A stretch of 44,245 nucleotides of DNA from a virus. The DNA is taken from IMG/VR virus record IMGVR_UViG_3300006789_000047, positions 1 through 44,245 of that record. One strand, written 5' to 3'. How positions within the stretch are numbered: position 1 is the stretch's first letter; each line of letters opens with the position of its first letter. A program made the position numbers and the translations under genes. Of the stretch, positions 2,848 to 33,825 are shown piece after piece. A model generated the notes under the pieces. The model made no database searches. It saw only the letters and a program-made list of their open reading frames with translations, and was not told where the DNA came from.

Positions 2848-2855
2848 GTGTATAT
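2848..2855 (+). promoter_or_regulatory. GTGTATAT motif (putative late promoter)
   Basis: One of a dozen GTGTA plus A/T-rich boxes found just before genes in this window. This one is 34 bases before the start at 2882. Confidence 0.45.
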
Positions 2856-2881
2856 TAGTTGTATAAGGGATTATTTAAATT

Positions 2882-3292
2882 ATGAAAGAAACTGATGCAC
2901 ACAACGTTCCCGTCATGGTTGATAAAACTAACCTAGACGTAGATAAGTATAAACACCTCCTAAAACTTTCATCGCAAAAAGAAGAAGTAGAGGTTCAGGC
3001 TCAAAAACCTTCTATTCATGTTCCTGTTGAGCAAGAGGGCATTAAGTTAATGTCACGAATTCAGGAAATCCATTGCCCTCATTGTGGGGAGCATGTAGGC
3101 CGTTGGACATTTTTCCATAGATTGGCTGCTAATGAAGAGTTGGACGAAACTAAAGCCTCAGAATTACTCGAAGAGAAAAAGGTATTAGAAGATCGACTAA
3201 ACAGTATCGATGAAGTTCTTGCGAGTCAAGATACTGTAGAAAAGTATAAAGAGGTATATGAAGACGTAAAGGAAGATAATAAAGATAAATAA
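2882..3292 (+). CDS. CPHC-containing hypothetical protein
   Basis: A 136-residue soluble protein. The middle holds one CPHCGEHVGRW motif (about 65-75), half of a typical zinc ribbon, so metal binding may need a dimer or a partner. The C-terminal 50 residues are strongly charged and probably coiled-coil (KASELLEEKKVLEDRL and onward). The N-terminal 45 residues look disordered. I do not recognise the family. It is the only gene between Hsp20 and the terminator at 3328, and has a GTGTATAT box upstream. A structural or regulatory binding role is possible but unproven. Confidence 0.6.
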   Translation: MKETDAHNVPVMVDKTNLDVDKYKHLLKLSSQKEEVEVQAQKPSIHVPVEQEGIKLMSRIQEIHCPHCGEHVGRWTFFHRLAANEELDETKASELLEEKKVLEDRLNSIDEVLASQDTVEKYKEVYEDVKEDNKDK

Positions 3293-3298
3293 TAATTA

Positions 3299-3306
3299 GT
3301 GTATAT
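3299..3306 (+). promoter_or_regulatory. GTGTATAT motif without an adjacent gene
   Basis: The same box as before other genes, but here it is followed after 22 bases by a terminator. It may start a short transcript, or be a chance or relic copy. Confidence 0.25.
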
Positions 3307-3327
3307 TTAGTTATCCTAAATCCCTAG

Positions 3328-3354
3328 CCCTGCTTTTATAAAGTGGGGTTTTTT
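3328..3354 (+). terminator. Rho-independent terminator
   Basis: A 9-bp stem with two G-T wobbles (3328-3336 with 3340-3348), loop TAT, then six T residues. It ends the hsp20 and CxxC gene unit. Confidence 0.7.
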
Positions 3355-3531
3355 GTCACTCACTAGTGAGCGGCTAAATAGTTTGTCGATCAAATATGCG
3401 TTATTATGATCGTCTATAGGATTATATGTGATCTAACTTAGATTCGGGGCTAGGAGTAAATAAGTAATAATCTAGAAAAAGCCACTAAGGAAAAAGAATA
3501 ACCTCTTGGTAAAGAAAAGAACTCTATAGAG
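3355..3531. other. Intergenic region with palindrome
   Basis: No gene seen. A perfect 12-bp palindrome, CTCACTAGTGAG, lies at 3359-3370, just after the terminator. The rest is AT-rich without clear promoter or repeat. Confidence 0.35.
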
Positions 3532-3810
3532 TTGCCCGTTGTATATTGTTGTATTTTTTTGTATATGAAAATCAATAAAGATACATCACAAAAATCTGGT
3601 AAACCAAATGGTGGTTGTATTTTGTTATATTGGTTTGTGCCCTTTACTTTTTTATTACTTTTTTTATTACTTAGATGTATACACGACCAGCCCCGATTTA
3701 AATCCCCGAAATCCACCCCGCCCGAAGCCGAATCGCTAAATCTACCCCGGCCCGAGGCCAAACCCCGAACCTGTACCGGCCCGAAGCCGGAACCATTTTT
3801 CACTAATTAA
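3532..3810 (+). CDS. Doubtful ORF: TM segment plus Pro-rich tail
   Basis: An open frame of 92 codons. If real, residues about 28-50 form one long hydrophobic segment (CILLYWFVPFTFLLLFLL) and the last 40 residues a Pro-rich tail with repeats of the form PxPEA or PKPEP. The tail is encoded by a GC-rich island (about 3685-3795) quite unlike its AT-rich surroundings, and an antisense frame is also open over 3450-3803. No ribosome site is convincing. It could be a small membrane protein, or a non-coding repeat island that happens to stay open. Confidence 0.25.
   Translation: MPVVYCCIFLYMKINKDTSQKSGKPNGGCILLYWFVPFTFLLLFLLLRCIHDQPRFKSPKSTPPEAESLNLPRPEAKPRTCTGPKPEPFFTN
3685..3800. repeat. GC-rich CCCCG/GCCCGAAGCC repeat island
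   Basis: CCCCG recurs at short, uneven spacing, and GCCCGAAGCC or close variants (GCCCGAGGCC) occur three times. The last two form hairpins: GGCC-CGA-GGCC, and CCGGC-CCGAA-GCCGG. The final hairpin is followed by a short T run, so a terminator role is possible. The island differs sharply in composition from both flanks. Confidence 0.5.
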
Positions 3811-3843
3811 AAAAAATAATCACAGACCTCAGCCCCAATTATG

Positions 3844-3851
3844 GTGTAATT
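3844..3851 (+). promoter_or_regulatory. GTGTAATT motif (putative late promoter)
   Basis: 28 bases before the phoH start at 3872. Confidence 0.4.
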
Positions 3852-3871: not shown

Positions 3872-4609
3872 ATGGCTGCGAAGAAAAAAGACACTTCACC
3901 GAAAGTCCATCAAAGAGACAAGCTCTCAAGCTCTTTAAAAATTAAAGAATTAGATTGGACCGAAAAACAAAAAACATTCATAAACCAATCCTTACATAAA
4001 GATACTAAGATATCTTTTGTGGATGGCCCTGCTGGATGTGGAAAATCACTATTAGCGGTTTATTGCGCTTTAAGACTTCTAAACGAAAAGAAGGTTTCTG
4101 ATATCGTTTATATTAGGTCTGCGGTGGAAAGTTCCGATAATAAAATGGGGCATCTTCCCGGTGACGCTAATGAAAAGCTTCACTTCTTTAACTTGCCATT
4201 TATGGAAAAGTTAGACGAATTACTCCCAGTAACTCAAGTTAAAAAATTAGAATCTGATGAAAGAGTTTCTATATATCCAGTTAACTTTTCTAGAGGTATG
4301 AGTTGGAATGCTAAATGTATTATCTTTGATGAAGTTCAAAATAGTACAGAGAGAGAAATAGTAACAGTACTAACTAGATTAGGAATGTTTAGTAGATGCT
4401 TTGTTTTGGCTGACCCTATGCAAACAGATTTGCACCCAATTAAAGGTGGGGCATTCGAAAAGATGTATAAAATATTCTCAGATCAAGAAAGTTCTGATTT
4501 TGGTATAAAAACTTTCGAATTTGATGAAGATGATATTATGAGATCAGAATTAGTTAAATTCCTTGTTAAAAAATTCAAGGAGCTTAAAGAGCCCACGGAT
4601 AATCCTTAA
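3872..4609 (+). CDS. phoH: PhoH-like P-loop ATPase
   Basis: A 245-residue cytoplasmic NTPase of the PhoH family, very common in marine phages. Walker A is GPAGCGKS (52-59) and Walker B IIFDEVQ (150-156). The family segment before it (WNAKCIIFDE) and the ADPMQTDL motif (sensor-like, about 180-187) are present. Its length matches phage PhoH proteins that have only the ATPase core. The exact role is unsettled; it is often linked to RNA metabolism or phosphate stress, but phage copies are not reliably phosphate-regulated. Its stop nearly abuts the stop of the convergent minus-strand gene at 4612. Confidence 0.9.
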   Translation: MAAKKKDTSPKVHQRDKLSSSLKIKELDWTEKQKTFINQSLHKDTKISFVDGPAGCGKSLLAVYCALRLLNEKKVSDIVYIRSAVESSDNKMGHLPGDANEKLHFFNLPFMEKLDELLPVTQVKKLESDERVSIYPVNFSRGMSWNAKCIIFDEVQNSTEREIVTVLTRLGMFSRCFVLADPMQTDLHPIKGGAFEKMYKIFSDQESSDFGIKTFEFDEDDIMRSELVKFLVKKFKELKEPTDNP

Positions 4610-7521: not shown

Positions 7522-7572
7522 ATTTTTTCCCTTACTTTCCGTCCACTTTTTTTTGATTTTTTGTAGTTTTTA

Positions 7573-7580
7573 CTGTATAT
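7573..7580 (+). promoter_or_regulatory. CTGTATAT motif (variant putative late promoter)
   Basis: 14 bases before the start at 7587. CTGTATATATG reads CATATATACAG on the other strand, so the shared divergent region may serve both directions. Confidence 0.35.
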
Positions 7581-7586
7581 ATGTAA

Positions 7587-8078
7587 ATGCTTAAAATTTA
7601 TTGCAAAAGTTGTGGCTCTCCAAGTGGGTATACACTTGAAAAGCCTAAGTTTTGCCAAGGATGTGGACAACCTTTTGGGGAATTAACTTCTTCCGCTAAA
7701 ACCTCTATACAAAAGCCCGTTAGAAAGTTTGAAAAAAGAAAAGTAGAGGTAGAAGTTGAAGAAGAGACGTTTATAGAAGAAAGTGAAGAGAGAGTTCCCG
7801 ACTTAGATCGTCTTGACGTGGAAATACAAGCTAAAGGACCAAGAACTCAAACTTTGCAGCAGCTTTCTGAAGCGGAAGTTAGCGAGTATGATCATTCGTT
7901 AAATTTACCCAGAGATGAAAGGTCTTCTAAGGAAATATTTGAAGAGTATCAAATGGAAGCGGGAAATAAAAATCCCAACAGAGACGCCACTTTTGCAAAA
8001 AGTAACACGGCTTCAAGTTCAGGCTCCCCCCCCAGAAGGTCTCCCAAAAAAAGAGGTAGACCTAAAAAAAATAAATGA
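7587..8078 (+). CDS. Zinc-ribbon protein with AT-hook-like tail
   Basis: 163 residues. An N-terminal zinc ribbon (C6, C9, C23, C26; CKSCG and CQGCG knuckles) is followed by a long acidic, probably disordered middle and a basic end, SPKKRGRPKKNK, whose RGRP core is an AT-hook that binds the minor groove of AT-rich DNA. It overlaps the sigma-like gene by ATGA, so the two are likely made together. A DNA-binding accessory to transcription or packaging is plausible from this pairing but not shown. Confidence 0.6.
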   Translation: MLKIYCKSCGSPSGYTLEKPKFCQGCGQPFGELTSSAKTSIQKPVRKFEKRKVEVEVEEETFIEESEERVPDLDRLDVEIQAKGPRTQTLQQLSEAEVSEYDHSLNLPRDERSSKEIFEEYQMEAGNKNPNRDATFAKSNTASSSGSPPRRSPKKRGRPKKNK

Positions 8079-8776
8079 ACAAAAGGGGAAGAAAGAGCAA
8101 AGATCACAAAGAGTTTGTTGATGTAATCGATCTCATAAATACCGAAATCTATAAGAGGAGAAATAGATGGAATCTCGGTATTTTAGCTTGGATGGATTTT
8201 GAAGACGTGGCTCAGATTATAAGGTTCCATATTTTTAAAAAGTGGCACTTGTATAATCAGAAGAGAAAACTCGCGCCTTGGGTAAATAGGATAATAACTA
8301 ATCAAATAAAAAATTTGATTAGAAATAATTATTCTAATTTTGTTAAACCCTGCGTAAAATGTGCTGCCGCAGAAGGAGACGACGATTGCGCTATATATAA
8401 AAAACAGTGCAATGACTGTCCTTTATTTAAAAATTGGGAAAGGAATAAGAAAAGCGCGTTTGAAACAAAAATGCCAGTTCCCCTAGAGCATTACTCTCAA
8501 GAATTATATGTTGCGTCTTCAAACGTTTCAATTGATATAGAAAAAGCTGCTAGTAATCTTCACGAAAGAATGCGTGAAATCCTTAAGCCAAATGAATGGA
8601 TCGCTTATAAATTTTTATATATAGAGAACAAAGACGAAGAAGAAGTCGCCTCTTTAATGGGATTTAAAACAACTGAAAAAAATCGAAGCCCCGGATATAA
8701 ACAAATAAAGAACTTAAAAAAATCAATCGTCAAGAAAGCTAAACTAGCTATTGAAAATGATGAGGTGGATATATGA
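8075..8776 (+). CDS. Phage sigma-like factor with Cys-rich insert
   Basis: 233 residues. Residues about 31-86 match sigma70 region 2: DFEDVAQIIRFHIFKKW, then APWVNRIITNQIKNLIRNN, the -10-binding helices of ECF-type factors. Residues about 152-225 look like region 4 (NEWIAYKFLYIENKDEEEVASLMG, then a basic helix). Between them lies C93, C96, C105, C112, C115, a zinc-finger-like insert unusual for sigma factors. Position between a DNA-binding protein and the packaging genes, with ATGA overlaps on both sides, fits a late-gene sigma analogous in role to T4 gp55. It probably directs host RNA polymerase to late promoters. Confidence 0.65.
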   Translation: MNKRGRKSKDHKEFVDVIDLINTEIYKRRNRWNLGILAWMDFEDVAQIIRFHIFKKWHLYNQKRKLAPWVNRIITNQIKNLIRNNYSNFVKPCVKCAAAEGDDDCAIYKKQCNDCPLFKNWERNKKSAFETKMPVPLEHYSQELYVASSNVSIDIEKAASNLHERMREILKPNEWIAYKFLYIENKDEEEVASLMGFKTTEKNRSPGYKQIKNLKKSIVKKAKLAIENDEVDI

Positions 8777-9870: not shown

Positions 9871-10810
9871 ATGCGAAATTTGCGAAAAAGAATTTAAAAA
9901 TGATCGTGGTCTACACGCTCATATTAAGGCTCATAAGCTCACCGTAAAAGATTATTATTATAATCAGTTCCCAAGGAAAGATTTATATACTAATGAGTTT
10001 ATAAATTTCAAAAATAAAGATCAATATTTGAGCGCAGACTTTAATAATAAAATTAATATGAAGAAGTGGCTTAAAGCTCAGCCAGAAGATGAAGCTAAAA
10101 AGTATATAAAAAGTATTTTAACTAAAAGAAAAAGTAAAAAAAATTTAAAATTTTTACCATCACAAATAGAACTTAGAACTATCGTCGCTCCCCCAATACA
10201 ATACTATAATAATTTATTTAAGGATTATTACTCTTTGGCTGAAGAGCTTGGCTTTGACAATAAGTTCAAATTTTTACCAAAAGAGAAAATAATCAGAGGC
10301 TCAAAATATAAACATGACGAATATTCCATTCTCGTTGATACGAGAGAACAAAAGCCTTTAGACTTTAATTTTTTTATCGAAGTGGCTACCTTGCCGTTCG
10401 GAGACTATGCGTTTAGCGATTCAGAATTAAGTTGCAATTGTTACATCGAAAGGAAATCTTTAAATGATTTCATAGGAACCTTGAGCGGTGGATATGAAAG
10501 ATTTAAAAATGAAATAGAAAGAGCTTTAATTGAGGATTGCTATTTAATCGTAGTTGTCGAAAGAAATTTAAATGATTGTAAATCATTTAATTACTTAAGT
10601 GAAATAAAAAAGAAAATGTCTACCCTAAAAGTAACTCCAGAATATATTTTTTATAATGTAAGAGAGTTAATGCAAACCTATAAAAAGTTCCAATTTTTGT
10701 TTGTAGAAGATAGAAAAGAGTCCGTCAGAGTAATAGAAAAAATATTTACTTCTGGATGCGTATTTAAAGATATAGATTTACAATACGCTTACGACACTAA
10801 ATTATTATAA
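9863..10810 (+). CDS. C2H2 zinc finger-ERCC4 nuclease fusion
   Basis: 315 residues. A C2H2 finger (C4, C7, H20, H24) is followed by a basic linker and an ERCC4/XPF-type nuclease domain from about 152: VDTREQ (158-163), GDY (180-182) and IERKSLNDF (195-203) with E196, R197, K198 and D202. These match the family pattern GD...ERKxxxD, where the acidic residues bind metal and cut branched or flapped DNA. No helix-hairpin-helix domain is seen. It overlaps the previous gene by 8 bases and shares TAATG with TerL, so it is probably made with the packaging motor and may trim branches before packaging. Confidence 0.75.
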   Translation: MAKCEICEKEFKNDRGLHAHIKAHKLTVKDYYYNQFPRKDLYTNEFINFKNKDQYLSADFNNKINMKKWLKAQPEDEAKKYIKSILTKRKSKKNLKFLPSQIELRTIVAPPIQYYNNLFKDYYSLAEELGFDNKFKFLPKEKIIRGSKYKHDEYSILVDTREQKPLDFNFFIEVATLPFGDYAFSDSELSCNCYIERKSLNDFIGTLSGGYERFKNEIERALIEDCYLIVVVERNLNDCKSFNYLSEIKKKMSTLKVTPEYIFYNVRELMQTYKKFQFLFVEDRKESVRVIEKIFTSGCVFKDIDLQYAYDTKLL

Positions 10811-12627
10811 TGTGGTATGCGCCTGAAAAATATAATGACGATTTTAAAAACGTCAATGAAGAGCTTCTAAAACTAAAGGGCGACCTTAACAATAAAGAGG
10901 CTAAAATTTCTTTAGCCAAATTCCTATACGCTAACCCCGGATTAACTACAGAGTTAATTTCCGGAATTAAACTCGCGCCCTTTCAGGAGGTCACCTTGAA
11001 AGCGATGATGAATAGAAACTTTTCCATGTGCGTTTGGGGTCGTGGCGTTGGCAAGACTTTTATAGCTTCTATATTTTGCTTTTTACAATGCATATTTGAA
11101 CCGGGAACAAAGATACTTATCGCTGGTCCAACATTTAGAACTGCTAGGTTTATTTTTAATAATTTAGAGAAAATCGTTGATACAGAAGGGGCTAGATTAT
11201 TAGCTCAATGCTTCGGAGCAAAATCTAAAAGAAACGATCAGTATGAGTGGATAATTAATGGAGGGTCTATAACCGCGATTCCCCTCTCTGGAGAAAAGAT
11301 TCGTGGTTTTCGCGCTAATGTATTAGTCCTTGACGAGTATTTGCTCCTCCCCGAAGAAACAATTAAGACAATTCTCATGCCCTTCTTGGTAGCACCACAA
11401 GACATGAAACAGAGAATTGAAATTAGAGAGATGGAAGATCAGCTAATTAAAAGTGGAGATATGAAAGAGGAGGATAGAATGGTCTTTGAAAATAACTCTA
11501 AAATGATAGCTCTTTCTTCTGCTAGTTATACATTTGAAAATCTATATAAGACTTATAAAGATTGGACTACTAATATTTATTCTAAAGAGATGAATTCTGA
11601 AAGTAAATATTTTATTTCTCAATTAGCTTGGGACGCTATCCCAGAGCACATGATTGATAATACAATTATTGAAGAAGCTCAAGCTGGAGGAACTTCGGAC
11701 GCCATGTTTAGGAGGGAGTATTGCGCTGAATTTACCGATGGAAGTGATAGTTATTTTAGTGCAAAGAAAATGCATGAATGTACTATAGAAGATGGAGATT
11801 CCCCTACCGCAAAAATAGTTGGAGACTCAGATAAAAAATATATACTTGGAATTGACCCAAGCTTTAGTAATAGCCCCGCTTCAGATTATTTTGCTATGGC
11901 TATAATTGAATTAGACGACGAAACTCAAACTGGAACATTAGTTCATAATTACGCTGTGGCGGGAGGGGATTTAAAAGATCACATGAACTATATGGAACAT
12001 GTAATTTCCAATTTTAATATAGAGCTAGTAGTGATCGATAATGCCGGTTACCAATTCATAGATAGCTGTAATGAATCTGACAAATTTAAAAATAAATTAT
12101 CTTTCATAGACTTTAATAGTGATGCAGAAGGTATAGACTATGAGTTAATGATTAAAAAAGCTAGAAGGCAATATAATGTAAGCAATGGGGCTATTTGTTT
12201 TAAACAAGTTTTTACAACCAACTTTATTAGAATAGCCAACGAACATTTACAGGCTAACATTGACCATAAGAGAATTTGGTTTGCCTCAAGGGTAACCGCC
12301 AATAATGGAGCTTTTAATAAATATTCTTCCAAAAAAGTTAATTTAAAATTAATTTCAGAAGACTCAATTTTAGAATTTATAGAAACTCAAGACGCTTTAA
12401 TTCACCAAACAAAAAAACAATGCGCTTTAGTAGAGGTTAAAAGCACCGCTAAAGGGACTCAGACGTTTGACCTTCCACAACACTTAAAACGCTCAACAAG
12501 CGCAAATAGAGCTAGAAAAGATAATTATACGACTTTAATGTTGGCAAATTGGGGGGTAAAATGTTATTACGATATGATATCTGCCCCTAATGAAGAAGTG
12601 GCTACATTTATTCCTAAGTTAATTTAA
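10810..12627 (+). CDS. terL: Terminase large subunit
   Basis: 605 residues, a normal length. ATPase: Walker A WGRGVGKT (76-83), preceded by the adenine-motif region LAPFQEVTL; Walker B VLVLDE (171-176); coupling region near IALSSAS (233-239). RNase H-like nuclease: ILGIDPSFSN with D349, ELVVIDNAGY with D410, and RKDNYTT with D571 as the likely metal-binding acids. Both halves are intact. It drives ATP-powered DNA packaging into the prohead through the portal at 12650 and cuts the concatemer. Confidence 0.92.
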   Translation: MWYAPEKYNDDFKNVNEELLKLKGDLNNKEAKISLAKFLYANPGLTTELISGIKLAPFQEVTLKAMMNRNFSMCVWGRGVGKTFIASIFCFLQCIFEPGTKILIAGPTFRTARFIFNNLEKIVDTEGARLLAQCFGAKSKRNDQYEWIINGGSITAIPLSGEKIRGFRANVLVLDEYLLLPEETIKTILMPFLVAPQDMKQRIEIREMEDQLIKSGDMKEEDRMVFENNSKMIALSSASYTFENLYKTYKDWTTNIYSKEMNSESKYFISQLAWDAIPEHMIDNTIIEEAQAGGTSDAMFRREYCAEFTDGSDSYFSAKKMHECTIEDGDSPTAKIVGDSDKKYILGIDPSFSNSPASDYFAMAIIELDDETQTGTLVHNYAVAGGDLKDHMNYMEHVISNFNIELVVIDNAGYQFIDSCNESDKFKNKLSFIDFNSDAEGIDYELMIKKARRQYNVSNGAICFKQVFTTNFIRIANEHLQANIDHKRIWFASRVTANNGAFNKYSSKKVNLKLISEDSILEFIETQDALIHQTKKQCALVEVKSTAKGTQTFDLPQHLKRSTSANRARKDNYTTLMLANWGVKCYYDMISAPNEEVATFIPKLI

Positions 12628-12630: not shown

Positions 12631-12638
12631 GTGTAAAT
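12631..12638 (+). promoter_or_regulatory. GTGTAAAT motif (putative late promoter)
   Basis: 19 bases before the portal start, directly after the TerL stop. No Shine-Dalgarno is seen in the remaining space. Confidence 0.45.
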
Positions 12639-12649: not shown

Positions 12650-14629
12650 ATGAAAAAAGGCGATAAAACGAATAAAATTTCTGAAAACGAAACAAGTGGT
12701 TCTATCGAACCTAAAAAAACTACGAGAAGGAGGAAAAGCCCTGCTAACGCTACGCCACTAATGGCCTCTTTAGAGGAAGCTACCGCTTCTGCAGGAGACG
12801 GCACAAGAACGAGGAGAAATGCGGCTTCTTATATTGAGAGAACTAATAGGTTTACAAATATTGACCAAGGGATGATCCCTTTTAAGTATTCTGCAGGAGG
12901 ATACGGTAACACTTCTAATATTGACGTTAAAGACACGGTCATTTTGTGCCAAAAAGCTTATTACAACTTTGCTTCTTTTAGGAACACTATTGATTTAATG
13001 ACTGAATTTTCAGTTAACAATATCTATTTAAAGGGTGGAACTAAAAAGTCTAGAGATTTCTTTTATGCTTTTTTTGATAAAATAAATTTATGGGATTTTC
13101 AAGATAAGTTTTTTAGAGAATATTATCGTTCAGGGAATGTATTTATTTATACCTATTTTGGGAAAATGAATAAAGGAGAGATAAAAAAAATTACGCAGCT
13201 TTATGCTAAGGATAATTTAGACTTCCCTTTAAAGTATTCAATTCTTAATCCCGCAGATATACAATACGGAGGAAATACCGGCTACATGGTTGGTAAGTAT
13301 TTTAAAATTCTTAACGTTCACGAACTTCAAAGGCTTAGGAATCCACAAACCGAAGAGGACAAAAAGCTTTTCGAGGCTCTACCTAAAACGGCAAAGATAC
13401 AAATAAAGCAAAAAGCTAATATCGTATCTTTACCTTTAGAAGAGGATAAAATAAGTACCGTATTTTATAAACGGCAAGATTATGAACCGTTTGCTGTTCC
13501 TATGGGATACCCAGTAATGGATGACATTAACTGGAAAGCCGAACTTAAAAAGATGGATATGGGTATAGCAAGGACAATGCAACAAGCAATCCTTCTTGTG
13601 ACTATGGGGGCAGAACCAGAAAAAGGTGGAATCAATCAGCAAAATTTACAAGCGATGCAGCAGCTTTTTGAAAACCAATCAGTTGGAAGAGTTCTTATCG
13701 CTGATTATACGACTAAAGCGGAATTTGTAATTCCTAGAATTGCGGACTTATTAGACCCTAAAAAATATGAAGTAGTTGATAGAGATATCTTGAATGGGTT
13801 AAATAATGTTTTATTTGGTTCTGAAAAGTTCGCTAATCAATCTGTAAAATTAAATGTATTTGTCGCTAGACTAAACCAAGCTAGAGAATCTTTTATTAAT
13901 CAATTTCTTTTACCAGAAATGAAAAAGATTTCAAAAATGCTTGGGTTTAAAGGGTTTCCAGTTCCCCACTTCGACAACATTGATTTAAAAGATGACGTTT
14001 TATGGAACCGAATTATGGCTCAATTAATTCAATATGGTGTTCTTACTCCAGAAGAAGGAATTGAAGCTATCGATACTGGAAGATTACCTGACGCAGAAAG
14101 CTCTAAAATGTCTCAAGAGAAATTCAAGAACTATAGAGATGACGGTTTATACGAACCAATTACTGGTGGACCAAACACTCAGAAAGAATTGGCTCAAATA
14201 AGTCACGAGCAACAGGAAGAAAAAATTAACTCAAATCCAGTTGGAAGACCAGCGGGGACTTCAGCCCCCCAAACCACTAAAAAAGTTACTCCGATTGGAG
14301 AACGAGCCGCTAAAGAAGATAAATTTGTTTTTAACAGGGTGGTAGAAAATATGACTTTAGCTCAAAAATTGAGTTCAAAAGTAGAATCCTCCTTGAAAAG
14401 AAAGCACAAAGTAAAAGAGTTAACTGAAGCTCAAATTTCGATAGTCGAAAGTATTACAGAGTTAATCATAATAAACGAAGAGCCCGAAAATTGGGCTAAA
14501 AAAGTAAAAGCTTATATTGATAAACCTGAAGATAAAAATTTAGAAAGAGTTGAGCAAGTCACTTCTATAGCCTGTGAGCATCAAGTAAATCCATATTTAG
14601 CAGGAATTCTTTTAGCGAGTAGTAAATAA
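12650..14629 (+). CDS. Portal protein
   Basis: 659 residues, directly after TerL. Residues 1-60 are basic and low-complexity. The core (about 90-460) has the alternating helix and strand layout of portals, with a run after DRDILNGLNNVLFGSEKF typical of the stem and crown region in phage portals. The last 150 residues are charged and helical. It would form the dodecameric ring at the head vertex through which DNA passes. No catalytic motif is expected. Assigned by size, position and composition together; an adhesin or head-completion protein is much less likely. Confidence 0.8.
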   Translation: MKKGDKTNKISENETSGSIEPKKTTRRRKSPANATPLMASLEEATASAGDGTRTRRNAASYIERTNRFTNIDQGMIPFKYSAGGYGNTSNIDVKDTVILCQKAYYNFASFRNTIDLMTEFSVNNIYLKGGTKKSRDFFYAFFDKINLWDFQDKFFREYYRSGNVFIYTYFGKMNKGEIKKITQLYAKDNLDFPLKYSILNPADIQYGGNTGYMVGKYFKILNVHELQRLRNPQTEEDKKLFEALPKTAKIQIKQKANIVSLPLEEDKISTVFYKRQDYEPFAVPMGYPVMDDINWKAELKKMDMGIARTMQQAILLVTMGAEPEKGGINQQNLQAMQQLFENQSVGRVLIADYTTKAEFVIPRIADLLDPKKYEVVDRDILNGLNNVLFGSEKFANQSVKLNVFVARLNQARESFINQFLLPEMKKISKMLGFKGFPVPHFDNIDLKDDVLWNRIMAQLIQYGVLTPEEGIEAIDTGRLPDAESSKMSQEKFKNYRDDGLYEPITGGPNTQKELAQISHEQQEEKINSNPVGRPAGTSAPQTTKKVTPIGERAAKEDKFVFNRVVENMTLAQKLSSKVESSLKRKHKVKELTEAQISIVESITELIIINEEPENWAKKVKAYIDKPEDKNLERVEQVTSIACEHQVNPYLAGILLASSK

Positions 14630-15989: not shown

Positions 15990-15997
15990 GTGTATTT
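15990..15997 (+). promoter_or_regulatory. GTGTATTT motif (putative late promoter)
   Basis: 33 bases before the fibre gene start, overlapping the last base of the previous stop region. AAGGAA before the ATG at 16023 is a plausible ribosome site. Confidence 0.45.
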
Positions 15998-16022: not shown

Positions 16023-17885
16023 ATGCCAATAAGATTAAGAGATATTAACCCCGCGATATTTTTGCACCCGATGGCACTTGGTCATTCTGAGACGCCATTA
16101 GCTCATTTAGACGTTAGGCACAATGCAGACGAGAATAAATTGGTAGCTTCATTTACTAACCCTTCCAGCGCGTCAGATGGCGTTACAACCTCAATAAGAG
16201 TCGGCAAGGACGCAAGTGGTAATGTAGTGCTTGGATATATTCATGACACAACAAGTGGAGACGAAGAGTTAAGTATTTACCACCAAGGCGATACTATCGG
16301 AAGTGATGGATTAAATATTCGTAAAGGCGGAAACGTAGGAATTGGAAAAGTAAAATCCGACCATAAGCTTCATGTAGCTGGAACTTTAATGGTCGATAAC
16401 AAAGTAGTAGGGCAGTCTACCACTCTGCAGCTTGATACGGAAGCTGATGGAAATATATCTTTTAGATTAGCAAATTCTGAAAAGGCGGTTTTAAATGCAA
16501 ACGGTTTAGGAGTTGGAGTCACTCCAGCATCAAACGAAAAATTAATCGTTAACGGAAACGTTTATTTTAAAGGCGGTGGAATAATTCATAGAGTAGGAAC
16601 GACTGATTCGACTGTTATTAATAGTGATGGTTATGTTTTGTGGGATCGAATAACTGGAGAACCATCATGGTTAGATGGAACTCAAAGTAATGTTCAAGTG
16701 GGTAACTTTGGAGGAAATCTTGGATGGAGTAAAGTCGGCGTTACTGGAGACACAAAACCTTCTTGGATTGACAACACGCAATCAAATATCAGCTTATCAG
16801 GCTTTAATAATGACTTAGGCGCATCATCGCAATGGACAGATGTAAGCAGCACAATTGGCTCAACAGCTTATACGGGTATTTACTATAATGATTCTGACGG
16901 CACAAAAGCTAGAGTAACAATTGGTGACAATGCTGTGGCTGAACAAGCACTAATCGTAAGAGATGACGCGACTTGGCAATTAGTGTTAAAAAATTCTGCA
17001 ACTGGTGGTCAAGCTTGGTATGTGGGTGCTAATGCTACGGGGGTATTAAGGGGAGATGGAGGTAAACTTCTAATAAGCACCAGTAAAGATGCCGCAAATA
17101 CTAAATTTGTATTCAATAATACTGGAGCTTTATGGATTAATGAAGACCCTGCGACAACCGACTCTTTAATTACTAGTGCGGAAAAACTCGTCGTTAAGGG
17201 AGATTCTTATCATAAAGGAATTACATACGCATATAATAATACTGATCAATGGATCACAATAAACAATGCCTTTAATAGCGGTGGCCGTACCGGAGCAGAT
17301 TGGCAAACTTGGTGGTATTACTATACCACGGGAACAACCGACCAAAGCATTTATTGGTATAGAAGTGACTCTGGTGGTGACTGTATGGTTTTGACCGGAG
17401 ATGGCCACCTTGGAATAAACAAGGGAAGTGTTACTAATACTTACGCTTGTGACATTAATGGAACACTCCGTTGTCAAAGCTTAACCCAATATTCCGACAG
17501 AAATCAAAAGCAAGACATATTTGAAAGTGACTTAGGGTTAGAATTTATCAAAAAGTTAAACCCAGTTAAGTATAAGTGGAAAAACTATACTTCTACAAGC
17601 GTTTCGAAACGGGATGGCGCATCTCACACAAAAGATTATACGTTCAATAGAACTCACTATGGTTTAGTAGCTCAAGACGTAAAACAAGCTATAGATGATT
17701 TAAATGTAAATGACTTTGGTGGATATAAAGACACCAGCATCAAAGACCCCGATAAACCTGCAGAATACGGGCTAGATTATAATCAATTTATTGCTCCCTT
17801 AGTTAAAGCTGTTCAAGAGCTTTCGGTAGAATGTGAAGCCTTAAAGGTTGAAGTCGAAAACTTGAAAAGCACAGAAAACTCTTGA
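16023..17885 (+). CDS. Tail fibre with S74 intramolecular chaperone
   Basis: 620 residues. The N-terminal part has fibre repeats of the NVGIGK...KLHVAGT type (about 100-125), common in trimeric tail fibres and spikes. The C-terminal 130 residues form a peptidase S74 chaperone: YSDRNQKQDI with S491 and K496 as the likely Ser-Lys pair, then LNPVKYKWKN and a YGLVAQDV motif. In this family the C-terminal domain helps trimer folding and then cuts itself off between about residues 490 and 491. A final coiled coil (VKAVQELSVECEALKVEVENL) fits. It probably binds the host surface. Confidence 0.85.
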   Translation: MPIRLRDINPAIFLHPMALGHSETPLAHLDVRHNADENKLVASFTNPSSASDGVTTSIRVGKDASGNVVLGYIHDTTSGDEELSIYHQGDTIGSDGLNIRKGGNVGIGKVKSDHKLHVAGTLMVDNKVVGQSTTLQLDTEADGNISFRLANSEKAVLNANGLGVGVTPASNEKLIVNGNVYFKGGGIIHRVGTTDSTVINSDGYVLWDRITGEPSWLDGTQSNVQVGNFGGNLGWSKVGVTGDTKPSWIDNTQSNISLSGFNNDLGASSQWTDVSSTIGSTAYTGIYYNDSDGTKARVTIGDNAVAEQALIVRDDATWQLVLKNSATGGQAWYVGANATGVLRGDGGKLLISTSKDAANTKFVFNNTGALWINEDPATTDSLITSAEKLVVKGDSYHKGITYAYNNTDQWITINNAFNSGGRTGADWQTWWYYYTTGTTDQSIYWYRSDSGGDCMVLTGDGHLGINKGSVTNTYACDINGTLRCQSLTQYSDRNQKQDIFESDLGLEFIKKLNPVKYKWKNYTSTSVSKRDGASHTKDYTFNRTHYGLVAQDVKQAIDDLNVNDFGGYKDTSIKDPDKPAEYGLDYNQFIAPLVKAVQELSVECEALKVEVENLKSTENS

Positions 17886-17902
17886 TTTCAATACTTAATA
17901 TT

Positions 17903-20004: not shown

Positions 20005-20618
20005 AAAGATGGGAAATAATTAATCATCTCATTGAAGCTTCTGAAGCTAAGGAATATTTAGAAATTGGTTGGGGAAAAGGCATAAACTTTAAAAAGATTT
20101 CTTGCCCCTCAAAAACCGTAGTTGAGCCACGCGAAAAATTTTTAACCCCTGAATTTTTACCATCAGGAGCAAAAGTATTTAAAGGAACATCTGACGAATT
20201 TTTCGAACAAAATATAAAAAATTTTGATATTGTTTTTATTGATGGTTTGCATCGAGACTATCAAGTTAGAAGGGACGTTCTTAACTCTTTAAAATTTTTA
20301 AATGAAAAGGGGTATATAATATGTCACGATATTAATCCAGCAAAAGAAGAGGTGCAAAGACCTGAAGGAAGCCCACCAGAAATAAATAGCTGGACGGGTG
20401 ATTGCTGGAAAGCGTGGGTGAAGCTTAGGCAGGAAAGACCCGACTTAAAAATGTTCGTGGTTGATACTGATTCAGGATGTGGAGTCATTACCAAGGGTTT
20501 TCAATCTACGATAAACATTAACAAAGATTATAATAATTTATGTTGGGAAGATTTAGAGAAACATCGAGTAGAGTGGTTAAACTTAATCCAGAAAAAAGAT
20601 TTTTATAATGCGTTGTAA
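20001..20618 (+). CDS. Class I SAM methyltransferase
   Basis: 205 residues, the size of small Methyltransf_24-like enzymes. Motif I is YLEIGWGKG (19-27). The acidic residue after VVEP (40-43) would bind ribose. DIVFIDGLH (76-84) and the following DYQVRRDVLNSL are typical of this group, and YIICHD closes the sheet. A cytoplasmic O- or N-methyl transfer to a sugar is likely from the neighbours. It overlaps the sulfotransferase gene by 11 bases and is not closely similar to the minus-strand methyltransferase-like gene. Confidence 0.75.
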   Translation: MKRWEIINHLIEASEAKEYLEIGWGKGINFKKISCPSKTVVEPREKFLTPEFLPSGAKVFKGTSDEFFEQNIKNFDIVFIDGLHRDYQVRRDVLNSLKFLNEKGYIICHDINPAKEEVQRPEGSPPEINSWTGDCWKAWVKLRQERPDLKMFVVDTDSGCGVITKGFQSTININKDYNNLCWEDLEKHRVEWLNLIQKKDFYNAL

Positions 20619-21228
20619 AGAATTTAACATTTTATTTATAGATATTTGCAAAAACGCTGGGTCTTCTATCTCTAGGGGATTTAGAAAAAACTTTCCAAAA
20701 GTCTCCGCTAAAGGTAGACACCATAGCGTAAGAAATTTTACCGCAAAAGGATTCGATCCTGAAGACGGTTCAATTTGGAAAGCCACTTGTGATCCTGTAA
20801 CAGAGGAAGACTTAAACACTTACAGAACGTTTGCGGTAATAAGAAATCCATACGATAGACTAGTATCTTTGTATCTTTGGGGCGGTTACAAAAAGCACTC
20901 TTTTGAGCTTTTTATAAAAAAAATAAAAAATGAAGAGTATACAGAATTTAACAAGCATAGATACAGAACTCAATTAGAGTGGATTAGCGACTATAATAAC
21001 AACATTAGAGTTCAGAAGCTATTAAGGTACGAAAATTTAGATGAAGATTTTTATAACCTACTAAAGGAATGGGATGTCCCACAATACAAATTGGGAAAAG
21101 AAAACACAGCCGAAGACCGCAGTGGAAAAAAGCGGGAACATTATAGACACTATTATAATCCCGTAAGTAAAAAAATTGCAGAAGAGCTTTACAAAGAAGA
21201 TTTAAAATATTTTAATTATGAGTTTTAA
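20608..21228 (+). CDS. Sulfotransferase family protein, copy 1
   Basis: 206 residues. FIDICKNAGSSISRGF (10-25) stands where PAPS-dependent carbohydrate sulfotransferases have the 5'-phosphosulfate loop (usually PKxAGTS); here the Pro is replaced by Cys and the Thr by Ser. FAVIRNPYDRLVSLY (75-89) is the 3'-phosphate-binding RNPYDR motif. LLRYENLDEDF and YYNPVSKKIAEELYKEDL match the C-terminal part of the Sulfotransfer_2 family. It would move sulfate from PAPS to a sugar hydroxyl. Overlapping genes on both sides indicate one operon. Confidence 0.8.
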   Translation: MRCKEFNILFIDICKNAGSSISRGFRKNFPKVSAKGRHHSVRNFTAKGFDPEDGSIWKATCDPVTEEDLNTYRTFAVIRNPYDRLVSLYLWGGYKKHSFELFIKKIKNEEYTEFNKHRYRTQLEWISDYNNNIRVQKLLRYENLDEDFYNLLKEWDVPQYKLGKENTAEDRSGKKREHYRHYYNPVSKKIAEELYKEDLKYFNYEF

Positions 21229-22096
21229 TTTGTCAATAGTTAGTTGCATTAAAAGCTACTCTTCCAGAGAGTTACTTGAATGGTTTTTATGGCACAAATT
21301 TATTGGCGTTGACCATTTTTATATTTTTGACGATGATGGAAAAGTTAAAGTCGAAAACGTCTTAGAAAAGTATAAGAATAACATTACTTTAATCAACAAA
21401 TTAAATTTTGAAAAAAAAATTACACTCGTAGGATTAAAGAAAAATGCTTCACCGAACGATGTTCAAATAACTCCTCGGTTTGGATATAAACCCTCAATGT
21501 ATGCGGACATATACGATAAATATAAAAACGAGTCAGATTGGATGGCTTTCATTGACGATGATGAATTTATCTTTCCGCTAAGGGATAAGTCTATAAAAAA
21601 ATATTTATCAGAAGTTGAAGAAGAAAAAAGTTTAGTTTTACAGTGGAGGAATTTTTCCCCAAGCGGAAAAGCGAAAACTCCAACGGGAGGAGTAATTTTT
21701 GATCATTACAAAAGTCACAATCAAGGTACAACAATTAAAACAATTATAAATTGCAAAAAAGTAAATTCCATCTTCAAAAAGAATCATTTTTTAACTGATA
21801 GTGGCGTAGACGCTAACTATAATCGAGTTGAGTTAAATTCCTCGCAATTAAATTACGTAGTAGACAGTCCTTATTTTGTCTTAAATCATTATTGCGTGAA
21901 AAGTTTTGAAGACGCAATATCTAAACTACACAGAAGATACGAAGATAACGCTTTTAATCCCAAAAGTTTAGAGGTTGCGACACAAAGGTTATTAAAACAG
22001 ATTATTGGATTCTCTAATCAAAGGGTATACAATTGTCGTTTTAATTTTTCCAAAAAGTTAAAAAAAGCTTATTATGATTATAAATCACAAACGTAA
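21218..22096 (+). CDS. GT92-like glycosyltransferase
   Basis: 292 residues. LLEWFLWHKFIGVDHFYIF (19-37) then DDDG is the start typical of family 92 and related GT-A enzymes. WMAFIDDDEFIFP (108-120) holds the DDD metal and donor site. VLNHYCVKSFEDAISK (about 227-242) matches the conserved histidine-containing C-terminal region of such enzymes. No signal peptide. It overlaps sulfotransferase genes on both sides (11 and 23 bases). Likely a galactosyl-type transferase by family, but the true sugar is unknown. Confidence 0.75.
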   Translation: MSFNLSIVSCIKSYSSRELLEWFLWHKFIGVDHFYIFDDDGKVKVENVLEKYKNNITLINKLNFEKKITLVGLKKNASPNDVQITPRFGYKPSMYADIYDKYKNESDWMAFIDDDEFIFPLRDKSIKKYLSEVEEEKSLVLQWRNFSPSGKAKTPTGGVIFDHYKSHNQGTTIKTIINCKKVNSIFKKNHFLTDSGVDANYNRVELNSSQLNYVVDSPYFVLNHYCVKSFEDAISKLHRRYEDNAFNPKSLEVATQRLLKQIIGFSNQRVYNCRFNFSKKLKKAYYDYKSQT

Positions 22097-22718
22097 ATTT
22101 ATTTTTATTCACCTCCCTAAATGTGCGGGGACTTCAATAAAAAGGGCTTTGTACCCGTATTGCGATGAGTACGATCAATTCTTTGGGGGACACCCAGACG
22201 CTCCAGAAGGTAATAATGAAATTTCAAAACATAGTACCGCTATGGAAATAAAATCTTTTGCTACAGAAAAAAGATGGAATAATTATTTTACTTTTACGTT
22301 TGTAAGAAATCCAATAGACCGAATAACATCTTTATATAATTGGTGGCATCATACCAAGGGTCTTTTTGACATAAAGAAAAAAGAATCTATCTGCTCTATG
22401 ACTTTTGAGGAATTTGTTTTTTCAGAAGAGACCGGGCCTAGCATGTTAAGTTCGCTAATATCAAAAGATGTTAAAGATAGTTTTGTTTCAGATAAAAATA
22501 GAATTGAATTAGACTTTATTGGAAAACAAGAAAGTTTAGGTAAAGACTTTGGGTATATTTGCGGACTATTTAGGTTACCGAATATGCCTTTAAAAAAATA
22601 TAACGAATCAAAAGACCCTCTTGTATGCTCAAGCAAAATAGATGAAAAAATAACAAGAGAAATTAAAAGAAAGTATCACGAAGATTTTGAATGTTTTTAT
22701 CCTAATCTTTTAGATTAA
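22074..22718 (+). CDS. Sulfotransferase family protein, copy 2
   Basis: 214 residues. IHLPKCAGTSIKRAL (12-26) is a canonical PAPS 5'-phosphosulfate loop, and FTFVRNPIDRITSLYN (74-89) the 3'-phosphate motif. It is thus a more orthodox member of the Sulfotransfer_2 type than its neighbour at 20608. It ends the transferase operon; 67 bases without gene follow. Two sulfotransferases with different loops suggest two acceptor positions. Confidence 0.82.
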   Translation: MIINHKRKFIFIHLPKCAGTSIKRALYPYCDEYDQFFGGHPDAPEGNNEISKHSTAMEIKSFATEKRWNNYFTFTFVRNPIDRITSLYNWWHHTKGLFDIKKKESICSMTFEEFVFSEETGPSMLSSLISKDVKDSFVSDKNRIELDFIGKQESLGKDFGYICGLFRLPNMPLKKYNESKDPLVCSSKIDEKITREIKRKYHEDFECFYPNLLD

Positions 22719-23188: not shown

Positions 23189-23217
23189 CACTCATTGTCA
23201 TAGTTACATTATCCAAG

Positions 23218-23245
23218 CCCTACCTTTTAGGTAGGGTTTTTTTTT
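23218..23245 (+). terminator. Rho-independent terminator
   Basis: A perfect 7-bp stem CCCTACC/GGTAGGG (23218-23224, 23230-23236), loop TTTTA, then nine T residues. It separates the transferase and lipoprotein units from the capsid unit. Confidence 0.92.
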
Positions 23246-23262: not shown

Positions 23263-23303
23263 GTGTATAATTGAAAGAGTAATTTTTATTTTTAAGTGTA
23301 ATA
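23263..23303 (+). promoter_or_regulatory. Tandem GTGTATAA and GTGTAATA motifs (putative late promoters)
   Basis: GTGTATAA (23263-23270) and GTGTAATA (23296-23303), 33 bases apart, just after a terminator and before the head genes at 23318. It is the only doubled site, which fits a need for high expression of capsid genes. Confidence 0.5.
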
Positions 23304-25836: not shown

Positions 25837-26967
25837 ATGAAGTTAAAATTAAAACACACCCCGGAGCAGGTTGAGCTTATTAAAGCTATTGGCTCCAAGA
25901 ACAAATCTGTTTCTCAAGAAGCTCAGGAAGCATTTGCAGCTTTTATCGGACCTATTGTTCAAAAAGTTATTCAACAAGCCTCTACGGCTGGAATGATTTA
26001 CGCTGACGCAGAATACGATGAGGATGATTCTCCTTCGTATCCGTTAGATTTGTACTATAACGAGGGTGAAGGCTACGTTAACGTATGGTCCCAAACTATG
26101 GCTGGTGGCCTTCCGACCTCATTGGTCGAAGGTGTTAAAGAGATGAAAATCTCCACCTACCGTTTGGACAGTGCTGTTAGCTTCCTTAAGAAATACGCTC
26201 GTAAGTCCCGTTTAGACGTTGTGAGCAAGGCTCTTGAGAGAATGTCCCAAGAGGTACTTGTTAAGCAAGAGAGAAACGCTTGGGCGGTCATCTTAACAGC
26301 TTTAGCTAAGGCTAGTACTTCTCACGTTAACGACGCTGGTAATCCTACGGATAGCCACATCGTTCAAGGTGATATTAGTGATGGGCTTACTCTTGAGAAC
26401 TTAAATAGCTTAATGATTCTCATGAGAAGAATTAATCAATCGTGGGCTGGTGGTACTGCCTCTAACCATGATTCGTTTGGCGTGACTGACTTATTTGTTA
26501 GTCCCGAGCAAAAGGGTAAGATCAGAAGAATGGCTTATAACCCTCTTTCTACTGATAGTAAACCGCAAGGCACACAAGCTTTGCCTGATGGTGTTAAAGA
26601 AGATATTTATCGTGCCGCTGGTGCGAGTGAAATCTTCGGTATCAGAATTACTGATATGACCGAATTAGGTGTTGGACGTAAGTATAACAAATTGTTCGAA
26701 GAAATGGCCTCTGGAATTAATCTTTCCGGCGGTAGTTCTTTTGACGACTCCTCTAGTCACGAATTGGCCATCGGCCTTGACTTGTCTAAGGAAGCTTTCG
26801 TTCGCGCAGTTGCCCGTCAAGCTGACAGTGGTGGTACGTTTAGCGTTCTTCCTGACGATCAGTTTGTCGCTCGTTCTGACAAGACCGGTTTTTACGGATT
26901 CTTGGAAGAGGGCCGCGTTTGTATCGATGCTCGTGCCATTTCCGGTATCGTATTTGGTACTGCTTAA
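25837..26967 (+). CDS. Major capsid protein
   Basis: 376 residues, a usual size for the HK97-like fold. The start is helical (residues 1-55). A long spine-helix-like region lies around 115-160 (SAVSFLKKYARKSRLDVVSK and onward). It ends with domains rich in short strands. It uses codons such as CGT, CTT and AAG far more than the neighbouring AT-rich genes, the mark of a highly expressed gene. AGGAG lies 11 bases before the ATG, and a strong terminator follows. Several hundred copies would form the shell. Confidence 0.85.
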   Translation: MKLKLKHTPEQVELIKAIGSKNKSVSQEAQEAFAAFIGPIVQKVIQQASTAGMIYADAEYDEDDSPSYPLDLYYNEGEGYVNVWSQTMAGGLPTSLVEGVKEMKISTYRLDSAVSFLKKYARKSRLDVVSKALERMSQEVLVKQERNAWAVILTALAKASTSHVNDAGNPTDSHIVQGDISDGLTLENLNSLMILMRRINQSWAGGTASNHDSFGVTDLFVSPEQKGKIRRMAYNPLSTDSKPQGTQALPDGVKEDIYRAAGASEIFGIRITDMTELGVGRKYNKLFEEMASGINLSGGSSFDDSSSHELAIGLDLSKEAFVRAVARQADSGGTFSVLPDDQFVARSDKTGFYGFLEEGRVCIDARAISGIVFGTA

Positions 26968-26990
26968 GTCACGAAATAAAAAAATTCAAG

Positions 26991-27015
26991 CCCCGCCATT
27001 TGGCGGGGTTTTTTT
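26991..27015 (+). terminator. Rho-independent terminator after the capsid gene
   Basis: A perfect stem CCCCGCCA/TGGCGGGG (26991-26998, 27001-27008) around TT, followed by seven T residues. Confidence 0.92.
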
Positions 27016-27046: not shown

Positions 27047-27054
27047 GTGTATTT
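27047..27054 (+). promoter_or_regulatory. GTGTATTT motif (putative late promoter)
   Basis: 16 bases before the start at 27063, with no Shine-Dalgarno between. If it is a -10 box, the transcript would be nearly leaderless. Confidence 0.45.
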
Positions 27055-29921: not shown

Positions 29922-29929
29922 GTGTAATA
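29922..29929 (+). promoter_or_regulatory. GTGTAATA motif (putative late promoter)
   Basis: 21 bases before the Cys-rich lipopeptide start at 29943; TAAGGA (29937-29942) abuts the start. Confidence 0.45.
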
Positions 29930-30829: not shown

Positions 30830-30837
30830 GTGTAATT
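30830..30837 (+). promoter_or_regulatory. GTGTAATT motif (putative late promoter)
   Basis: 21 bases before the start at 30851. Confidence 0.45.
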
Positions 30838-30850: not shown

Positions 30851-31216
30851 ATGCCTATTTACTATAATCTAGATGTCGTTCAGGGTTCTTCGTTTTCTGC
30901 ACGTTTAAACGCAAAAAATAGTGGCGGTACAGCTATAGACATTACTGACCACGCAGTAAGAGGTGCTATTAAGAATAGGTATTCTGATACCACAGCTTTA
31001 ATGACATTTACCCCCACAATTGTTGACGCTTCTGCGGGAACAGTTGATATTTATTTGAGTGGAATTCAAACAGCTACTTTGCCTATTACTCAAGCTGTTT
31101 ATGATGTAGAAATGTATAAAACTGGAGCGGATGGACTAGATGACAATAGCTATGTAGTAAAATTACTAGATGGAAAAGTTAACGTTCACCCAGAAGTTAC
31201 TACGAGTACTAGCTAA
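30851..31216 (+). CDS. Small baseplate or fibre-attachment protein
   Basis: 121 residues, all beta-like. Residues 4-40 (YYNLDVVQGSSFSARL) and the end (VYDVEMYKTGADGLDDNS, then VVKLLDGKVNVHPEVTTS) match small N-terminal-type baseplate domains that hold fibres, as seen in BppU-like proteins. Its stop shares one base with the ATG of the next fibre gene, which supports joint assembly. Confidence 0.6.
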   Translation: MPIYYNLDVVQGSSFSARLNAKNSGGTAIDITDHAVRGAIKNRYSDTTALMTFTPTIVDASAGTVDIYLSGIQTATLPITQAVYDVEMYKTGADGLDDNSYVVKLLDGKVNVHPEVTTSTS

Positions 31217-32337: not shown

Positions 32338-32380
32338 TTTTTTAAAAAAAACTAAAATTTTAAGACAAACTCATTATCTG

Positions 32381-32388
32381 GTGTATAT
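32381..32388 (+). promoter_or_regulatory. GTGTATAT motif (putative late promoter)
   Basis: 46 bases before the start at 32427. AAGGAGG directly after it has no start codon nearby; AAAGGAA before the ATG is the working ribosome site. Confidence 0.45.
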
Positions 32389-32426
32389 GATAAGGAGGAC
32401 ATTTAGCTAGAATAAAGGAATAATTT

Positions 32427-33728
32427 ATGAGCGTAAAAGTATTTTCAGTAGAGCAACTTAGGTTAAATGGAGAATTACTCAGCGGCGATTCTCTAGATAG
32501 ACTTTGGTATGCTGGTAACCAATTGTCAATGGGGGATTCCGCTGTTCCCACTGGGTTTAATGTAGCTGCCGGTCAAGGTCTTAGTGGCGGCGGAACGCTT
32601 GATGGCTCCAGTATTTCTATTGATGTCAATATTGATGCTGCAAGTGCCGGTGGTTTAACAATTGATACAGATAAGCTAAAAGTTGATAGTATTGTTAATT
32701 CAATGGTCGCTGATAATGCAGCGATTGGAGTCACTAAACTTGCCGCTAGTGGGGTAACCGTAACCGCTGGAGACGGTATCGCCATGACTCATGGTGGCGT
32801 AATTAATTTAGGGCAAAGCCAAGTAGCTAGTGTAGACTTACACGCTACTGATCCCGGACTTGATATTGATGGAGGAAAGTTAAGAGCTCAAGGAATTAAA
32901 GATAGTAATGTCGCTGAATTAGCCGCAATTCACCCGACTAAACTTCTTGCCAGTGGTGTAACCGTAACCGCTGGAAACGGTTTAGCAACAACTAAGGCAT
33001 TTATTGGCCTTGGGGAATCTCAATCATTAAGTGTTGACGCCGCTGACAGCACTATTGATGTCGCTTCTGCAGGAATTAAAGTTAATAATGTTCCTAACGC
33101 CTTAACTGCTGGTGAAGGTCTCTCTGCTGGAGGCACTTTCAACGGAGGAACAGCTAGAGAATTTAAGGTAGATAGTAGTGCGGTTGTAATGTTGACCGGT
33201 AATCAGACCATTAATGGTCTCAAAGATTTTGCTGGTGGAATTCACGTTCATGGTGACCTTACTGTTGACGGCACTACCACTACTGTTGACTCCACAGTCG
33301 TTAACATCGGTGACAATATTATCGTCCTTAATAATGACGCGACAGACGCAGCCTCAAGCACAGACGGTGGTATTTTAATTAAGAGGTTTTCTGTTGGAAC
33401 AACCCAACAAAACTCCTCACTGCTTTGGGATAATAGTGAAGACGAGTGGAGAATTGGTAAAGAGGGGGCGGAAGAATCCGCTGCTCGTGGTAAAGCATTT
33501 ACGGTATCGCTCGGTCTTGCTGATGATGAAGAAACCATCAGTATTGCTTCGGCCAATTTCCAAAGTACTCCGGTTGTTCACGCGACAGTTAAAAATACTA
33601 CAGACACCAACCCTGACCTTATTAGCTGTATGGTAACGGCAGTATCCTCAACCTCAGTAACCGTAGTATTATCAGCCAAACCCTCTTCAGGAAACTATGT
33701 TTTAGAATTAGTTTGTATGGCAACTTAA
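32427..33728 (+). CDS. Tail fibre repeat protein
   Basis: 433 residues. Repeats of a unit with ASGVTVTAG...GLG (about 108-140 and 172-200) give a beta-helix or beta-prism stalk. The stretch HGDLTVDGTTTTVDSTVVNIGDN (about 273-295) then SLLWDNSEDEWRIG is typical of cyanophage and marine phage fibres. The C-terminal 80 residues are a probable tip. Codons are GC-richer than in flanking fibre genes. It is followed by a terminator. Confidence 0.8.
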   Translation: MSVKVFSVEQLRLNGELLSGDSLDRLWYAGNQLSMGDSAVPTGFNVAAGQGLSGGGTLDGSSISIDVNIDAASAGGLTIDTDKLKVDSIVNSMVADNAAIGVTKLAASGVTVTAGDGIAMTHGGVINLGQSQVASVDLHATDPGLDIDGGKLRAQGIKDSNVAELAAIHPTKLLASGVTVTAGNGLATTKAFIGLGESQSLSVDAADSTIDVASAGIKVNNVPNALTAGEGLSAGGTFNGGTAREFKVDSSAVVMLTGNQTINGLKDFAGGIHVHGDLTVDGTTTTVDSTVVNIGDNIIVLNNDATDAASSTDGGILIKRFSVGTTQQNSSLLWDNSEDEWRIGKEGAEESAARGKAFTVSLGLADDEETISIASANFQSTPVVHATVKNTTDTNPDLISCMVTAVSSTSVTVVLSAKPSSGNYVLELVCMAT

Positions 33729-33758
33729 TTTTAAAGTTAAGTAAAACAGTCCTCAAAG

Positions 33759-33782
33759 CCCCCGTGAAAACGGGGGTTTTTT
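33759..33782 (+). terminator. Rho-independent terminator
   Basis: Stem CCCCCGT/ACGGGGG (33759-33765, 33770-33776) closed by a GAAA tetraloop, followed by six T residues. Confidence 0.92.
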
Positions 33783-33817
33783 ATTGATATTTTGAGTTAA
33801 AAAAAGTATTTTATACT

Positions 33818-33825
33818 GTGTATTT
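33818..33825 (+). promoter_or_regulatory. GTGTATTT motif (putative late promoter)
   Basis: 23 bases before the start at 33841, directly after a terminator, so it probably starts the next unit. Confidence 0.5.

Follow-up and report, generated by a model that had tools for sequence, protein, structure and literature searches.

The phage phiEco32 encodes gp36, an ECF-type phage sigma factor with the promoter consensus tAATGTAtA (PMC4331800). The late promoters of T4 have the sequence TATAAATA and work with gp55, gp33 and gp45 (PMC2988020). Leaderless middle and late mRNAs have been described for the Thermus phage phiYS40 (PMC3594737), and promoters of the '-10 adjacent to ORF' type for Deinococcus-Thermus bacteria (PMC12340547). 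Here, we describe an element, GTGTA followed by A/T letters (GTGTAWWW), that probably drives the genes for making the virus particle in a large uncultured phage family; no earlier report of this late motif or of the phage lineage was found in the open-access literature. We consider it very probable that the element is a late promoter made of a -10 box alone, read by the RNA polymerase of the host when this carries a phage sigma factor (a likely one is the product of 8075-8776), and that it gives leaderless mRNAs for the lead genes.

The stretch of DNA analysed, hereafter the window, is a linear IMG/VR record of 44,245 bases. It covers the late region of a large phage, with terminase, tail, fibre, PhoH and glyco- and sulfotransferase genes and a protein (25837-26967, + strand, as are the motif copies, promoters, terminator-like hairpins and sigma-operon and terminase genes below) that is taken as the major capsid protein from its position and conservation, as it has no database name. 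This protein, the query with which the family was defined, has relatives in at least 268 contigs of IMG/VR and no match among the 50,697 phage records searched. The related contigs reach 178 kb and encode polymerase, DnaB helicase, ligase, clamp loader, RNR and RIIB. The relatives used are 80 related IMG/VR loci, which are related in sequence and not independent, and whose contigs may be partial; gene starts come from simple gene calls with a first-ATG caller. Relatives of the capsid protein also lie in contigs of one Rickettsiales MAG and one Flavobacteriales MAG (L157 and L158), different phyla that give conflicting host hints. The window also carries three copies of a 63-nt repeat (228-290, 923-985 and 1678-1740) with palindromic arms AAACTnnTTTACA...TGTAAAAnAGTTT, each upstream of a small orphan gene with no relative in any locus fetched; these repeats are possible operators.

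On the + strand of the window, GTGTAWWW occurs 12 times in about 3.5 kb of intergenic DNA against once in 40.7 kb of coding DNA; on the - strand it is found three times in coding DNA and never between genes. The overall count of 16 is at the level of chance (16.3 expected), so that the signal resides in location and strand. The difference between intergenic and coding DNA is strong (Fisher P = 8e-13), 2,000 dinucleotide shuffles of the intergenic stretches gave a mean of 1.00 and a maximum of 5 copies against the 12 observed, and of the 8-mers found in six or more of 23 upstream segments, GTGTAWWW showed the strongest enrichment. That prediction had listed 11 sites 14-55 bases before a start; all 11 are where it placed them and at these distances, one further copy (3299) had been overlooked, and the equal frequency inside genes that it had named as an argument against a promoter is not seen. 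A scan with consensus promoters returned a number of hits at chance level and was set aside.

The copy nearest the beginning of the window (GTGTATAT, 2848-2855) lies 34 nt from the ATG at 2882 of a gene for a small protein with a zinc-ribbon-like CPHC motif, and its predicted start is at about 2862-2863. The overlooked copy (GTGTATAT, 3299-3306) comes after a stop codon, leads to no gene and is followed, no more than 30 nt on, by a terminator-like hairpin (3326-3350); the unit 3299-3350 may give a short RNA or be a remnant. A PhoH-like gene (3872-4609) is preceded by GTGTAATT at 3844-3851 and a putative portal gene (12650-14629) by GTGTAAAT at 12631-12638, with a predicted leader of 4-5 nt in the latter case, and the tail-spike/fibre gene (16023-17885) stands 33 nt from GTGTATTT (15990-15997) and has a Shine-Dalgarno (SD) sequence. 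The capsid unit has a terminator-like hairpin (23215-23239) immediately upstream, a doubled element (GTGTATAA, 23263-23270, and GTGTAATA, 23296-23303), of which the second copy would leave a leader of 7-8 nt before the ATG at 23318, and another such hairpin (26988-27011) at its end. Beyond it, GTGTATTT (27047-27054) lies 16 nt from the ATG at 27063, with a predicted leader of 1-2 nt, GTGTAATA (29922-29929) precedes a small lipoprotein-like gene at 29943, GTGTAATT (30830-30837) a tail-assembly-like gene (30851-31216) and GTGTATAT (32381-32388), at 46 nt, a structural gene at 32427. A further terminator-like hairpin (33755-33780) is followed by GTGTATTT (33818-33825) upstream of the gene at 33841, where the predicted leader measures 8-9 nt.

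A place downstream of terminator-like hairpins, which had been noticed from the start, is thus real at several of these sites. So is the doubled copy, its two elements lying 33 bp apart, but no special role for it is supported: pairs of this kind are uncommon in the relatives and not shared between them, and it was discarded as a conserved capsid feature. Two supposed variants of the motif (7573 and 17903) fit better into another promoter class, of sigma-70 type (TTGATT-N17-TATATA, 7553-7581, and TTGATT-N17-TATAAA, 17882-17910, the latter assigned from its letters); both fit sigma-70 spacing, most relatives of the former have TATAAT, and neither was kept as a copy. The second of these promoters is followed by a small gene (ATG 17919) leading into a cassette (18083-22718) of glycosyltransferase-like, methyltransferase-like and two sulfotransferase-like genes.

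Over the window and the 80 related loci, both strands counted, 350 sites fall in 48 kb of upstream DNA against 314 in 2.7 Mb elsewhere, an enrichment of about 60-fold, and the position of the motif is kept orthologue by orthologue. The tail-assembly-like gene at 30851, which has a conserved N-terminus, carries it at 61 of 61 homologues, in 35 cases exactly 14 nt from the ATG. Operon-internal genes lack it, among them those for the capsid protein and for the large subunit of the terminase (10810-12627). No enrichment of the GTGTA motif was found in the control phages T4, HTVC008M and phiYS40, and a weak one, 6.5-fold with 4 sites, in S-TIM5. A single relative (L036) has no GTGTAWWW; a changed specificity was considered for it and rejected, as GTGTA still precedes its lead genes.

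The genes concerned fall into two groups when the window is compared with six large relatives. The motif lies upstream of homologues of the putative portal (6/7), PhoH (6/7), tail-assembly (6/6) and minor tail (4/5) genes and upstream of none of those of DNA polymerase, ligase, clamp loader, the large subunit of RNR and RIIB; the exceptions are the small subunit of RNR in two of six genomes and the helicase in one of four. Among genes without the motif that follow a gap of at least 40 nt, 21% have TTGACn-N16-18-TAnnnT, with a spacing between TTGAC and TAnnnT that peaks at 16-17, against 2% of motif genes, which points to two promoter classes that hardly mix. From the function of these genes we infer that the motif acts late in infection.

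The logo of 329 sites, in which GTGTA is fixed by the search pattern, continues with A (0.8) and T (0.8) and then with A/T, and contains no -35 box, in agreement with what had been said of the window. Upstream, maxima of A/T content lie at -4, -14/-15 and -25 relative to the motif, a rhythm of 10-11 bp whose phasing power at 10.5-11 bp is 1.8-1.9 against a maximum of 0.19-0.27 in randomly shifted controls. At the 133 sites with an ATG at least 20 nt away, purines reach 80-90% at index 14-15 and C falls to 0-1%. We take this purine peak as the probable transcription start, which falls on bases 15-16 when the first G of the motif is base 1, a position consistent with the T-A of GTGTA at about -12/-11. 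GTGTAWWW would then act as an extended -10 element, and the A/T maxima near -19, -29 and -40, which share one face of the DNA, would replace the -35 box, possibly as a contact for sigma domain 4 or the alpha C-terminal domains.

The ATG lies most often 14 or 15 nt from the motif, at the place of the presumed start, and the median distance is 14-15 in 19 of 67 gene families; the 30 sites at 12 nt belong nearly all to one family of 94 aa with a second in-frame ATG at 21 nt. Since the motif abuts the start codon at most genes, transcription would begin on or within a few bases of it, which would leave no room for a ribosome-binding site and make an SD dispensable. A strong SD is present at 0 of 133 sites with a distance of 12-17 nt, at 5% of those at 18-21 and at 53% of those at 22-45, and in 45% of operon-internal genes; counted by gene family, its absence holds as well (25 families, mean 0.001). 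By these spacings the mRNAs of lead genes should be leaderless or nearly so, and the downstream genes of an operon would keep their SD. The original suggestion of nearly leaderless transcripts at some genes would thus apply far more generally. Promoters of the TATAAT class in the six large relatives behave alike, with ATG distances peaking at 11-14 and an SD in 0 of 45 genes at 9-16 nt, which would make near-leaderless messages a property of lead genes generally and not a late-only switch. A phage IF3 was searched for in the relatives and not found; ribosomal protein S21 is encoded in one of 14 (L170, G003:96623-96781) and is annotated in HTVC008M, too.

A similar spacing is met in HTVC008M, a T4-like phage of SAR11 (Pelagibacter) that is unrelated to the family with the GTGTA motif. 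There (L166 and L168, 1-100000) six genes, five of them without an SD, have a TATAAATA-type motif, with any first base, at exactly 13 nt before the ATG; in T4 the same motif stands 20-43 nt before the ATG and 12 of 13 genes have an SD. By this spacing, a SAR11 phage that is available in culture would make leaderless late mRNAs. The presence of such a spacing at a T4-type motif in an unrelated phage may mean that leaderless translation arose by convergence in streamlined marine hosts.

The candidate late promoter originally proposed is thus supported by strand, intergenic place, conservation, preference for structural genes and a purine peak at fixed distance; these, with the motif itself, the A/T phasing, the SD contrast and the presence of sigma genes, can be read from the DNA directly. 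The phages carry one to three sigma genes each. One in the window (8075-8776) lies in an operon whose first gene (7587-8078) encodes N-terminal zinc-ribbon-like cysteines and is conserved in seven of seven genomes compared. Its product scores above the Pfam cut-off for Sigma70 region 2 (Sigma70_r2) and has a linker with conserved cysteines between its sigma2 domain and a helical, sigma4-like C-terminal domain; the top matches of a moderate fold model (pLDDT 70, pTM 0.53) are ECF sigmas, none of which passes E 0.001. Of 14 large relatives, 12 have an orthologue, and a thirteenth contig ends before that region. In the remaining one, G008, none was detected and the terminase, too, is missing in the stretches read, so that G008 is probably a fragment. 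The operon, preceded by TTGATT-N17-TATATA (7553-7581) in the window, has TATAAT in most relatives. Such a sigma-70-type promoter is in the order expected of a two-step switch, in which the sigma operon would be fired from it and the sigma would then read GTGTA as part of the host RNA polymerase. We regard the product of 8075-8776 as a likely late sigma.

This role could also belong to a second sigma of about 209 aa, which adjoins a dNMP kinase and is widespread in the family; that the same late promoter is read by this protein and not by 8075-8776 is a serious possibility, to which we give somewhat less than even weight. Second sigma and kinase keep their gene order in two divergent contigs (L148:2267-3449 and L163:8910-10080), within an early-type operon without the motif, and gp36 of phiEco32 is likewise encoded near a dNMP kinase. 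The best PHROG of the second sigma is phrog_351, and it matches phrog_1740, to which gp36 belongs, weakly but better (2e-6) than does 8075-8776 (1e-4), which has no other PHROG match. Neither sigma matched gp55 or gp36 in direct comparison, and a profile-sequence comparison of 8075-8776 with gp36 found nothing. Given its wide distribution and this match, either sigma may read GTGTA; contig G008, with the second sigma and the motif, would favour it further if it were not probably a fragment, and 8075-8776 has on its side a place in the packaging operon in 7/7 genomes and a sigma-70-type promoter in most relatives. A reader from the host, sigma-70 or an alternative sigma that takes GTGTA for an extended -10 with no phage sigma involved, appears improbable to us. 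The middle and late promoters of phiYS40 are reportedly read by the host sigma-A, according to a 2007 paper, and GTGTATAAT does resemble an extended -10. Sigma-70 promoters of Campylobacterales, moreover, have a periodic AT-rich signal in place of a -35 box (PMC3887049). Yet the same genomes contain a clean TTGAC-17-TAnnnT class that barely mixes with the motif (2% of motif genes), and each phage brings its own sigma genes.

A T4-type system of gp55, gp33 and gp45 with a drifted octamer would share with our proposal a -10 box without -35 and a sigma-family phage protein, and a clamp loader is present. It failed, however, on octamer, gp55 family and clamp, and we rejected it as highly unlikely: TATAAATA is enriched 0-2-fold in the window and three relatives against 51-fold in T4, a gp45-type clamp (PF02916) is absent from 14 relatives, which are possibly incomplete, and the gp55 of HTVC008M belongs to phrog_234, which neither sigma matches, nor did pairwise comparison find similarity. 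The tight spacing to the ATG in many genes might also suggest that the element is no promoter but a signal for translation or packaging placed before start codons. Such a signal fits poorly with spacings that reach 50 nt and more, with the return of the SD beyond 22 nt and with a motif that follows terminators, is absent from operon-internal genes and has promoter-like A/T phasing upstream, and we give it hardly any credence. A promoter read with a phage sigma remains the reading that we prefer.

Such a promoter serves as a code for recognising late promoters in a phage group that the capsid protein traces to at least 268 contigs of IMG/VR, so that late units and true start codons become callable in metagenomic contigs. 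The contrast between presumably leaderless lead genes and SD-led operon genes within one phage is a clean natural one for the study of leaderless translation, and HTVC008M, which is in culture, would allow the related claim to be tested at the bench. On a broader reading, this widespread uncultured lineage would have a phage sigma with a new specificity, for GTGTAAT and helically phased A/T in place of a -35, promoters fused to start codons and, for the most part, leaderless late units with SD-led downstream genes, and the spacing in HTVC008M would be convergence in streamlined marine hosts; here we find the balance even.

Among known systems, T4 shares the lack of a -35, many dispersed late units and a sigma2-type phage protein, and differs in its octamer, in the distance of its late genes from it (20-43 nt, with an SD in 12 of 13) and in gp45 and gp55, of which no family member was found here. 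The promoters of Deinococcus-Thermus also place a -10 directly upstream of the ATG and yield leaderless mRNA, with a cellular sigma factor and another motif, and those of Campylobacterales also have a periodic AT-rich signal for a -35 (PMC3887049), with a tgnTAtaAT core and a cellular sigma instead of a phage late system. In phiYS40, and probably here, the mRNA begins at or close to its lead gene, behind a single -10-like element, but GTGTAWW is absent upstream of phiYS40 genes, and the near-leaderless TATAAT-promoter genes and the missing IF3 set the present phages apart. The likeness to phiEco32 includes a single -10-like element without -35, a small phage sigma, downstream structural genes, a TGTA core, early genes on host -35/-10 promoters (here the TTGACn class) and the weak match of 8075-8776 to the PHROG of gp36. 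The differences are GTGTAAT in place of AATGTATA, more than ten dispersed copies in a 44-kb window with phased A/T upstream, lead genes that would begin at the transcription start, and a sigma whose linker is rich in cysteines and which shows no direct similarity to gp36. By analogy, the scheme may be described as one in which a small phage sigma and a single -10-like element, as in phiEco32, are combined with leaderless messages like those of phiYS40.
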